Positions 29,186 to 35,559 of a stretch of 64,000 bases of DNA are shown in pieces (position 1 is the stretch's first letter; every line of letters begins with the position of its first letter). The DNA comes from Utricularia gibba (taxonomy: Eukaryota; Streptophyta; Magnoliopsida; Lamiales; Lentibulariaceae): NCBI GenBank assembly GCA_002189035.1, contig CM007992.1, positions 3,720,001-3,784,000 on the forward strand, given 5' to 3'. Under the pieces are notes generated by a model. That model was not told where the DNA came from and did no database searches. It saw only the letters and a program-made list of their open reading frames with translations. Made by a program: the position numbers and the translations under genes.

Positions 29186-29662
29186 TTATCCGACGGCCAA
29201 GATCTTGAGGAAGCAATCAAGGGTGACGCCGTCTTGTTCGTCAGCACCTTCTCCGCAAGCCAATGCGATCATGGCCTTGACATCCTCTTCATGGGCCTTA
29301 AACCCAGCCCAGCCCAAGTAAGTAATGAGATCCTGGACCCCAATTTTCCCATCTCCGTCCTTGTCCATCAGCCGAAACGCATCCTCCATCAACGCCTTCC
29401 TCGCCCTCCCCGCTGCTCTGCCGTTCACCACCGCCTCGAATTCCTCGTACTCGACGTACCCGTTCTTATTCGAATCCGCGGCCATTATCATCGAATCTAT
29501 CATGTCCTCCTTCTGCGGTCCATTCGAGAAACCACCGTAGAATGCGCGCAGATCGTCGTAGCTGATTCTCCGGTCGCCATCGCCGTCGAGGACATCGAAC
29601 GCAGAGCGAAGATTCGGTTGCTTCTCGAAGCTACGGCCTCCATGCGGCGTCGTTGGGCACAT
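29186..29662 (-). CDS. EF-hand Ca2+-binding protein, CP1/CML-like
   Basis: An intronless 158-residue calcium sensor resembling the Arabidopsis calcium-binding protein CP1. Three canonical EF-hand loops are visible: DGDGDRRISYDD, DSNKNGYVEYEE and DKDGDGKIGVQD. The fourth site (ACGEGADEQDGVTLDCF) is degenerate. The open frame continues upstream to 29782, but I chose the internal Met at 29662. The CP1 family begins MCP followed by a short linker, and the 40 extra residues upstream (HTSAESAKKHQPINTLYKNH) do not look like coding sequence for this family. Likely cytosolic or nuclear. Tandem hydrophobic core residues between loops support a folded pair of EF lobes. Confidence 0.88.
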   Translation of the reverse strand: MCPTTPHGGRSFEKQPNLRSAFDVLDGDGDRRISYDDLRAFYGGFSNGPQKEDMIDSMIMAADSNKNGYVEYEEFEAVVNGRAAGRARKALMEDAFRLMDKDGDGKIGVQDLITYLGWAGFKAHEEDVKAMIALACGEGADEQDGVTLDCFLKILAVG

Positions 29663-30073
29663 TTTGGGCGAATTCAATTCACAGAAATTCCTTGGAATTC
29701 CTCTAAGGCAATGGTTTTTATAGAGGGTATTGATTGGCTGGTGCTTCTTCGCACTTTCCGCTGATGTATGCAGTGACATCATTCCCTCACGTGCCTATTA
29801 GGCACGCCAGGGTCTTCGTGTTCTCCCCTCCTCCTCGTAAATATTCTTTATTTTATGACTATTAATTTCAAATTGTGTACAGATTTGATTTTCAATATTT
29901 AATTACTTTCTAAATAAAAATGGACCTGGCCCAGTTAGAAGTAAGGCCCATTCTTTCTTTGTCCATACAAAGAATAAATGGGGCCGGCCCATTTTGAAGG
30001 CTGACGAACAGATTTCCCGCCTTCAACCTGGCTGTCCTTTTACAACGGGCGGCATTTCATCCTCCACGGAAAA
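29663..30073. other. Divergent promoter between EF-hand gene and OB-fold gene
   Basis: A 411-bp head-to-head interval. AT-rich in the middle (29830-29925), then GGGCC/GGCCCA words (TGGGCC-type, near 29930-29995) that resemble the UP1/site II elements common in promoters of growth-related plant genes. The motif assignment is visual only. Confidence 0.5.
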
Positions 30074-33000
30074 ATGAGGTCTCCGAGGGACGGGATGCTC
30101 GAGGTCTTCTTCGATGGACACGAAGAGGCGTCTATGGAGATCGAAAAATCAAATCCTACTGAAGACGACAATGGAGATCCGTTTCTTAAGTTCATATTGT
30201 ACGCGAAATCGATTCTATCCACAGAAGAAGGTGATGCATACGACTGCGAGGATGCTGTAAGCTGTCCGAGTTGGAGCTGGATGTCAAATCGGATTCTGCG
30301 TACATGTGCGGCTTATTCGAGTGGCGTGACGCCTGCGATCCTTCTTTCCGAGCTTGCAATGGTACCCCGCAATTTACGATTTCGGAGAGCTTGTCATTTG
30401 TTAGATTACCAACTGAATCCTGTGTTCTACTGACTGAGCTTCATTATTTACTTTTTTATGAATAATCAAGGCTTGGAACGAGAAATGTAGAAGCGGGGAT
30501 CCAAAAAAACAGGCACACGATGTTTCCATCTCAAGGAAGAAAAGGAGAGAGAAATCTCCCAATACGGTTACTATTGATTCAGTTTATGAGAAGAAATTCT
30601 TGTCACTTAGTGGTGTGATTGAAGCAGTGATAATTGATGCGTTTACACTAACTGGTATGGTGTTTGTGTATTCATATGCAGGGCTTCGTTGTTAAGCCCA
30701 CAAATAATTTTGAAATAGTATCATTCTTCTACAGGAACTGACATCCACATGTTAAGCTTGGGAGACGCTTGGAGTTGCAATACCATAGATCTGTATCTTC
30801 ATAGAAGGTAAATGGAAACCACCCTTGTACATCCTATGGTTGATTATGTCTGAATGACTTGCTTGGGATGCAGATTTTATGATATTGTTGACCCGAGTAA
30901 TGGGATTCTGAAGAAGGGACGTGAGGTTGTCTTAACTGGTTGTCGTCTTCGAGTTACTGCAGGAAACTCCAGGAGAATTCGGCTCTTACCAACCGAGTAT
31001 TTTGTCATACTGTTGGATGAGGTAACTTTTCGCTTTTGTATTTATGTTTTTTAAACATTGAACATGGTTGAGTACAGAGAATGGCAGTCACCTTTTGATG
31101 CGCGGTCCCAAGTCCTAGTTCCATCTTTCCTTTTGTTACTGACAGTTTCTACCTTTTCGAGTCAGGAAGAAGATGATGATGCCATGCTTTTAGGAGCACA
31201 GTTTTGCTCCGATTCATTTTCTTCGATTTCGCTTGATGATGTGGCGTTTGGGGTATCATATGCACTGTATGCAAGGTATGATTCCCTCCAAATTCTCTTA
31301 CAACTAGCGTGGAAGAGTTGTGCATTTGGTATAAGTGCCACCCGGAGTACATGTGATATGTTCTCATTTGTATCTCAGGTGATAATCTGGTCTGTAATAA
31401 AATTTTCCACTTCTAAAAACTGGTGACAAAACCAGTTAGGAGCAACAACGAAATTTTTTTATACGCCCTTGTTTACAAACTTTTTCAACCGCAGAATTGA
31501 AAATATAGGAGCGTTGGAGGAGGTACATGCTAAATGCGGAGGCTTGCAGAGGAAACAAATTGCTCTTGTTGATAACAATGGTTCCAGATTAAAATTTCTA
31601 CTGTGGGGGGAGCAAGTACTGATTGCAAATCTTCTCAGGTGAATCACATTTTCTTCATAAGATAGCATGTTAAAAAATGGGAACACAACGCTTGTATCTC
31701 GTATATACCAATTACCATTGTTTCAGTTGGTGTTACGTTTATTCCTCTGGCTGATTCTAAAAGTTGAGGCTGTGTGTTAATGCAGCGTTGGAAGCATCCT
31801 CGCACTAGATTGCCCCTTCATTGCTAGTGCTAAAGATAGCTCTCTTGAAGCATGCGATGAAATTTGCCTAGAATATGGAAGTGTCACTAAGTTATATCTT
31901 GTCCCCCAGCACTGCACAGGGAACAAGTAAGACAAGAAAACCTTCAGGAATATGTCACTACTGTTACACATTTGTTAATTTCATTTACGACGAGAGTACG
32001 CTGTGGGTTCAGGTTTCCGTGGCATTGACTCAGAACCAATATCAAGCGTCAAGGCTGTTGAGAGCCACAGATCCGAGCCAGGGACACATGGTTTCCCAAG
32101 TGGAGTTACCTTGTGACTCTTATGGATCTATTGATTTCACCAACTACCCATTTCGGGTGAGCTGGTTCTATGACCTTGAAAAGTCCTTTTTTTTTTAAAA
32201 AAAAAGGATTGTTCACTGTAACAAGGATTTTAACCGTGTCTGGTTTGAAGTTCTGCAGTCTTATGTTTCTGATTTACACGACAAGATGACTGGTGTCAGT
32301 CTCTATGCTACTATTAGAGATATAAGAGCATCACGGGGAATGCTCTCGATAAGGATAGAAGATGAATCTGGAGCTACATGGGCAAAATTGCATCTTAGTG
32401 GGCATTGGTGAGTGTTTTCTGACAAAAGGCTTGTGCATTCACAAATACCATGACTATTTATTTGACGCGCTGAAGCTTCGTCAGGTCGTTGGGGAGACTA
32501 GACGTGGGCCACACTATCTTCATATCTGGTTTAAGCACTTCCCTCGCCTCAGACATGAGGTAACATCTTTTAAGTCATGTTAGAATACATAAGTATTCAA
32601 TTTTCTAAAAAAAGTATCATACGATCAATGCAGCATAGAGTTATCATGGTACGAGGACAACACCGGTTCTTCATTCTTCAATTTGAGTTGCTTGCCGGCT
32701 ATCCTCAACTCTCCTTGTCTTCACAGATTGTCTAGGCTTTGTGACCTATCCACCCACTCGATAGGTACAATGGTATGTTGCTCATGCAATAATCTTTCAT
32801 CCTTTTAATATCGAAGGCACCACTCATTAGTTCTTTGAAGCTTGTAGCACATTCTACACTCTTTTTAATTCTATTAATGTTTCATCATTTTAGGTATGCC
32901 GAGTATGTGTAGATCAGACTGAATGCTTTTATGTGGAAACGAGATTCATGCATGCCCTCTGCGGTCATCTGCTGGATGAATCCCCCCACGGTGACTTGGA

Positions 33001-33429
33001 ATGCAGATTTTGTGAATCCACTTGTGGTGCTGAAATCCAGCGTACCTTCAATGTAAGAATGACACTTTCGGACGACACGTCAAAGGTTGTTGTTAGATGT
33101 ATCGGTCAGACAGCTGCTGAGATGCTTCAAATATCCCCTCAGGAATTCCATGCTCTCTCTGAGGTAATGGACGAACCACCCCTTTGAACGATACAAAATT
33201 GCTGTCGCTTTTTTTATTCCGACCACGTAATAACCGTTCCGTCGGAATTGCGCAGGAAGAGCAGTGTATCTACCCTTCGTCACTTGGAACTGAAAATTAC
33301 ACCGTGGCTATAGTTAACCGCAGGAGACAGGACACTGGAAAGTTTTATGAGCAAGTCAGGATGACTGCGTCGAGTGGGAAGTCACTTGCGCCATCAAAGC
33401 CTGATTTTCCTACTGTAAATACGATATAA
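30074..33429 (+). CDS. Multi-OB-fold, zinc-ribbon protein (RPA70/SHLD2-like), frame broken once
   Basis: Thirteen exons run from 30074 to 33429 (30074-30361, 30471-30654, 30735-30807, 30874-31021, 31166-31275, 31495-31638, 31786-31926, 32013-32156, 32259-32407, 32485-32559, 32634-32772, 32894-33163, 33256-33429). They would encode about 679 residues if one base were added in exon 7. Beta-rich segments typical of OB folds recur (REVVLTGCRLRVTAG, LDDVAFGVSYALYARIE, GATWAKLHLSGHWSLG). The last third holds a CxxC...CxxC zinc ribbon (CGHLLDESPHGDLECRFCES) followed by VRCIGQTAAEMLQISPQEF, the pattern of the RPA1 C-terminal DNA-binding domain. I infer a single-stranded-DNA-binding or genome-maintenance role. 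The shieldin SHLD2-like assignment is only a suggestion. As sequenced, exon 8 is read out of frame and stops quickly. Confidence 0.7.
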
Positions 33430-33609: not shown

Positions 33610-34334
33610 ATGGGAGATAGCCGGAGAGTGGGCGTGGCGGTGGATTTCTCGCCGTGTAGCAGAAAAGCTCTGGACTGGGCTTTGAATCATCTCGTCCGCG
33701 ACGGCGATCATCTGATCCTCGTCACCGTTCGCCCCGAGGGCGGTTACGAATCCGGCGAGCTTCAGCTCTGGGAAGCCACCGGCTCTCGTAATTTTTTACC
33801 GCTTTTGCGATGAATTTTTCTCCCCTACTTGGGCTGATATTAAATTCATTGGTTTTTCTGGAAGCTTTGATCCCTCTGTGCGAGTTGACCGACCCGCATG
33901 TGATGAAGAAATACGAGGTGGATGCTGATCCTGAAACCCTAGATATGCTTTCCACTGCTGCCCGGCAGAAAGAGGTACGTGCATCTGATGATCATGGATG
34001 AATTAGGAAACCGATTTCTTTTCTGGGTTTCTTACTGAATCAACAAGGAGCAGATCACTGTGATCATGAAGATCTTCTGGGGTGATCCTCGTGAAAAGTT
34101 GTGTGAATCAGTAGACGCTATTCCCCTCGACTGCCTCGTCGTTGGGAATCGAGGCCTCGGCAAGATCAAAAGGTCCCTCCCATTGATTAACATATTGCTT
34201 AATCAAGTGGATTGATTACTTTATAAACCTCCAAATCTCACTCACTCTGTAACAGGGCGATCATGGGGAGCGTGAGCAACTATGTGGTGAACAATGCCTC
34301 GTGCCCTGTGACCGTGGTCAAGAGCCACGACTGA
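33610..34334 (+). CDS. Universal stress protein (UspA-like)
   Basis: A 161-residue cytosolic USP-fold protein in four exons (33610-33787, 33865-33974, 34054-34172, 34256-34334). It opens [20 protein letters not shown], the usual beta1-helix1 with nucleotide-contacting Asp. The C-terminal ATP-binding motif G-2X-G-9X-G(S) is present as [20 protein letters not shown], followed by [10 protein letters not shown]. The family is implicated in stress and hypoxia responses and binds ATP; the specific role is unknown. The start lies only 180 bases after the stop of the OB-fold gene, so its promoter must be very short or overlap the neighbour's 3' UTR. It ends 257 bases from the convergent bZIP gene. 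Confidence 0.92.
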
Positions 34335-34590: not shown

Positions 34591-34944
34591 TCAACAGCTC
34601 CTGAAGAAACGAATCATGGCTGCTGATGGGTATCCAGAGTTTCCTCCAGCATTTGCAGCCTCCTTTAAGCTCCTCCCCAGCTTCCTCAACTTCCCGTTCT
34701 CCAATTCCACGCCAGCGTATCTCCTCTTGATATCCTCGCACTTGGCATCGATTTCGCCGTTTTCGGCGCTGAAATGCACCACCTGATCATTCAGATCCTT
34801 TACGTATTGTTGCCTTTTCAACCTGGACCGTCGCGCGGATTCCCGGTTGGATAGCTTCCTTCTCTTCTTCTTCTTCTCATCCAACGTGATGGCTCCATGT
34901 CCGTAGACTTCGGAAGATATGGAGTTGCTTCCGAGCATCGCCAT
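34591..34944 (-). CDS. Short bZIP transcription factor (group S-like)
   Basis: An intronless 117-residue bZIP. The basic region is KLSNRESARRSRLKRQQYVK, containing the invariant N-X7-R. A short zipper follows with hydrophobic positions spaced by seven (Leu, Phe, Ile, Ile, Val, Leu). Small intronless bZIPs with this basic region are usually group S, which heterodimerise with group C; the basic region fits, though the zipper is less Leu-pure than typical S1 members. It is not the IRE1 target bZIP60 type: there is no membrane helix. The promoter faces the acyl-activating enzyme gene. A CTTCATCATCATCATCTTC tract lies upstream at 35234-35268. Confidence 0.87.
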   Translation of the reverse strand: MAMLGSNSISSEVYGHGAITLDEKKKKRRKLSNRESARRSRLKRQQYVKDLNDQVVHFSAENGEIDAKCEDIKRRYAGVELENGKLRKLGRSLKEAANAGGNSGYPSAAMIRFFRSC

Positions 34945-35559
34945 TGATAATTTCTGTGGGTAATTTCACTGTCACAACAGAAAGGTTGGAAAAACCAGCA
35001 GAAAGGTGATCAGGAAGAAGGGTGACAGACAAAGCAAGCGATCACCTTGGATGGAAATCATGAGTACGATCGCAAATCCAAAGGAAACACCACAAACTTC
35101 TGCAAGCCTGAGGAGGATTCAAAATATGGAGGAAGATGAATGCCAATTGGCAGCGATAAATTCAGAGGAAGATTACGATAGCTCCCGGCTTCAAGAATGG
35201 ATAAGGTTTGAATAGACGTCAAAAGAGCAACATTCATCTTCATCATCATCATCTTCTTCTTCCTCTTCAACCGCATGTGACCCTCACACTGAGTCTTCAC
35301 ATTCGAGTCACGAAGCAATAAAATACAATTATCAGTTATCACTGGAGTTGGGCAAAAACCACTCGAGTCGTAAAGAAATTGTCTTGTGCTTCTTTCCGGT
35401 AATTGCGGCCCGATCCCTGTAACATGGTGATATTTCCAAGTGGTCCTTCCAAGTGTTGCAGTAGGCTACTTCTAACGTTGTCCAGCTATATATATATATA
35501 TATATCACTCACTTCTCTACAGCAACTAGGGAGAGGGAGTGCGAAGAAAATTTCAGGCG
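34945..35559. other. Divergent promoter between bZIP and acyl-activating enzyme
   Basis: A 615-bp head-to-head region. It holds a (TCA/TTC)-rich tract at about 35234-35268 and a (TA)n run at 35487-35505 close to the start of the plus-strand gene. A 94-codon frame on the minus strand (35058-35342) lies in the bZIP leader region but does not match the conserved group S1 upstream ORF. Confidence 0.5.
35487..35505. repeat. (TA)n microsatellite
   Basis: Nine and a half TA units 55 bases before the start codon of the acyl-activating enzyme gene. It could double as a TATA-like element, though the distance to the ATG is short. Confidence 0.85.

Follow-up and report, generated by a model that had tools for sequence, protein, structure and literature searches.

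The gene located at positions 30074–33429 on the forward strand of the window, the whole 64-kb stretch of Utricularia gibba DNA that was analysed, very probably codes for a plant protein of the fission-yeast type of Cdc24 family, predicted to be an RPA-like chain of OB folds with a terminal zinc-ribbon OB fold. Despite the common name, Cdc24 of this type has no kinship with the exchange factor called Cdc24 in budding yeast. A Pfam-A scan of the 684-residue product, in which matches with E up to 10 were considered, showed CDC24_OB1 at residues 37–159 (125.1 bits, E 2.1e-36), CDC24_OB2 at residues 166–296 (158.2 bits, E 2.1e-46) and CDC24_OB3 at residues 421–637 (219 bits, E 8.4e-65). These three domains constitute the likeness to S. 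pombe Cdc24 (PF17246-PF17245-PF17244): all of them were matched over essentially the full length of their profiles, in the correct order, and about 100 bits or more over the curated CDC24 cut-offs, which lie near 25 bits. The kinship with S. pombe Cdc24 rests on the Pfam family; the yeast protein, of about 500 residues, is shorter than the predicted plant one.

The OB-fold families detected span most of the length of the protein, in agreement with the sequence-only reading of this DNA, which had proposed a multi-OB-fold protein of genome maintenance. Residues 297–420 contained no above-threshold domain in the Pfam-A scan, and any count of the OB folds is therefore provisional.

The gene is intact from the ATG at 30074 to the TAA at 33429, and the 13 exons previously proposed for this interval were confirmed by canonical splice sites and an open spliced frame. 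All 12 introns are short (66–219 bp) and of the GT..AG type, the GC content is 0.45 in the exons versus 0.37 in the introns, and the spliced frame is free of internal stops, the other two frames containing 35 and 50. The start codon and the beginning of OB1 are found in exon 1 (30074–30361), and the remainder of OB1 in exon 2 (30471–30654) together with a basic stretch, RKKRR, at residues 118–122. OB2 starts in exon 3 (30735–30807), continues through exons 4 (30874–31021) and 5 (31166–31275) and ends in exon 6 (31495–31638), where a weak resemblance to REPA_OB_2 was observed at residues 269–309. Exons 7 (31786–31926) and 8 (31997–32156) are followed by exon 9 (32259–32407), in which OB3 starts at residue 421, and by exons 10 (32485–32559) and 11 (32634–32772), also within OB3. 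The zinc-ribbon region, with the RPA1-C-like stretch GQTAAEMLQISPQEF, is located in exon 12 (32894–33163), and the stop codon in exon 13 (33256–33429).

The junction between exons 7 and 8 required correction. Joining the GT donor that follows 31926 to a CAG acceptor at 32013 threw the downstream exons out of frame, and a boundary at 31999 also broke the frame. Because the 32013 acceptor breaks the frame, exon 8 was taken to begin at 31997; of the acceptors nearby, only the AG preceding this position keeps the reading in frame when the good donor following 31926 is used, and the corrected product is of 684 residues. The length of 679 residues given earlier is obtained arithmetically when exon 7 is extended by one base, to a non-GT donor, and thus apparently needs a non-canonical junction. 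The predicted junction at 31997 is set by the reading frame alone, and no Pfam domain spans it.

The C-terminal region resembles RPA1 (RPA70). In the Pfam-A scan Rep_fac-A_C was matched with 21.7 bits (E 1.9e-4), under its cut-off of 28.5 bits, and the matches to tRNA_anti-codon and REPA_OB_2 were likewise under cut-off. The NCBIfam model TIGR00617 (rpa1) gave a partial match (E 3.7e-5, 22.5 bits versus a cut-off of 334.2), and the sole sensible match among solved structures was Ustilago RPA70 (4gnx, E 0.055). The RPA1-like zinc ribbon previously noticed at the C-terminus is thus real as a family resemblance, though its profile matches are sub-cut-off. Exon 12 encodes cysteines at positions 539, 542, 548, 560, 574, 577, 581 and 606, and the spacing C560-x13-C574-x2-C577 is identical to the C-x13-C-x2-C of the RPA1 of the same genome; C560, C574 and C577, together with C548 or H557, are therefore candidate zinc ligands. 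The first C-x2-C (539/542) of the cysteine pattern formerly described may thus not contribute ligands, and these two residues would then sit in a preceding strand. AlphaFold2 prediction of exon 12 alone, from the single sequence, gave a pLDDT of 40.

A divergent RPA1 paralogue serving as the RPA large subunit would account for this C-terminal likeness, including the zinc-ribbon-like cysteine pattern, the stretch that follows it, and the matches to Rep_fac-A_C, TIGR00617 and Ustilago RPA70. All of these matches are nevertheless sub-cut-off, to be compared with 125–219 bits for the CDC24 profiles, and the rest of the protein fits CDC24 and not RPA1; neither an above-cut-off match to Rep_fac-A_C nor a full-length match to the rpa1 model was found. 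Furthermore, two intact RPA1 matches are present elsewhere in the genome, and direct blastp comparison with these two RPA1 proteins was weak (best E 0.011), which makes an RPA1 paralogue improbable. MEIOB also resembles RPA1, and a plant MEIOB-like meiotic OB-fold protein was considered as well; the full-length matches to all three CDC24 profiles, with nothing specific to MEIOB seen in the Pfam and NCBIfam scans, render this identity more doubtful still.

A homologue of the shieldin subunit SHLD2, which would protect double-strand-break ends in the plant, had also been suggested for this gene. SHLD2 has several C-terminal OB folds, and the likeness to it is limited to this general architecture. 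The SHLD2 family gave no match to the protein in the Pfam scan up to E 10, in which the full CDC24 OB1-OB2-OB3 series was obtained instead, and when all six frames of the genome were searched with SHLD2_C, only a chance-level match emerged, located elsewhere (12.9 bits, E 3.3, cut-off 27). The profiles thus reject the SHLD2 identity, and the suggestion is scarcely credible for this gene. As the genome search runs exon by exon, its result does not prove that the plant lacks shieldin.

Membership in the Cdc24 family, the preferred reading, was also considered at the genome level by profile searches of the assembly (100.09 Mb, 516 contigs). All the CDC24 matches above cut-off corresponded to exons of the gene at 30074–33429, and the CDC24-family gene is apparently single-copy in this assembly. 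One other OB3 match was obtained, under cut-off and coinciding with an RPA1 gene, and the OB3 profile also picked up archaeal genomes among the controls; these matches in archaea and, weakly, in plant RPA1 fit an RPA-related origin of the domain. The nuclease family of Dna2 (PF08696) was found over cut-off at one locus of the same genome. In addition to the two intact RPA1 C-terminal domains, a third RPA1-like locus (C328:1572780–1573375) showed split C-terminal-domain matches, one of them with an in-frame TAA, which may reflect either introns or a decayed copy.

Upstream of the coding region, an E2F-type site, TTTCCCGCC, is located at 30013–30021 (+), about 50 bp before the ATG, and would fit an S-phase gene. 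The site is a consensus match only: TTTSSCGC occurs four times in the window versus about seven expected, so it is not enriched, and an expectation of about seven per 64 kb corresponds to a chance of about 1% in any given 100 bp, which leaves the site as suggestive only. An intronless gene for a calmodulin-like EF-hand protein (29186–29661, reverse strand) and the CDC24 gene are arranged head to head, about 410 bp apart, a layout in which a bidirectional promoter may be common to both genes. A multi-exon universal stress protein (Usp) gene is found directly downstream of the CDC24 gene (33612–34334, forward strand), and a reading frame for a bZIP transcription factor at 34591–34965 (reverse strand).

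Okazaki-fragment maturation in S. pombe requires a heterodimer of Dna2 and Cdc24 (PMC4159138; PMC6943134). The co-purified Dna2-Cdc24 binds DNA and cuts a 5' overhang, an activity that RPA stimulates (PMC4159138), and flap cleavage may be stimulated by the interaction of the two proteins (PMC6943134). Homology makes it most likely that the plant protein binds single-stranded DNA as a partner of Dna2. It would be nuclear, and the basic stretch RKKRR could act as a nuclear import signal; no canonical PCNA-binding motif was found in the protein sequence. Expressed in S phase, probably via the E2F site, it would use its OB folds to bind single-stranded DNA or RNA-DNA flaps, pair with Dna2 and, beside RPA, direct flap cleavage in Okazaki-fragment maturation and perhaps end resection.

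Cdc24 was termed unique to fission yeast in a 2014 paper (PMC4159138), and a 2019 review stated that its homologues had not been identified outside fission yeast (PMC6943134). Given the full-length Pfam match of a predicted plant protein, this fission-yeast-only view would appear to be wrong, and the regulation of plant Dna2 becomes directly testable with mutants. The protein is not of a new kind, since the Cdc24 family is already modelled in Pfam, and the plant branch of the family appears to be unstudied: no papers on a plant Cdc24 member or its function were found in the literature searched, subscription papers being mostly outside its reach. Whether a functional Dna2-Cdc24 system has been retained in plants, for maturing the lagging strand or for resection, seems to us an evenly balanced question. 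If it has, Dna2-Cdc24 would be an ancient eukaryotic module that was lost in some lineages, and not a peculiarity of fission yeast.
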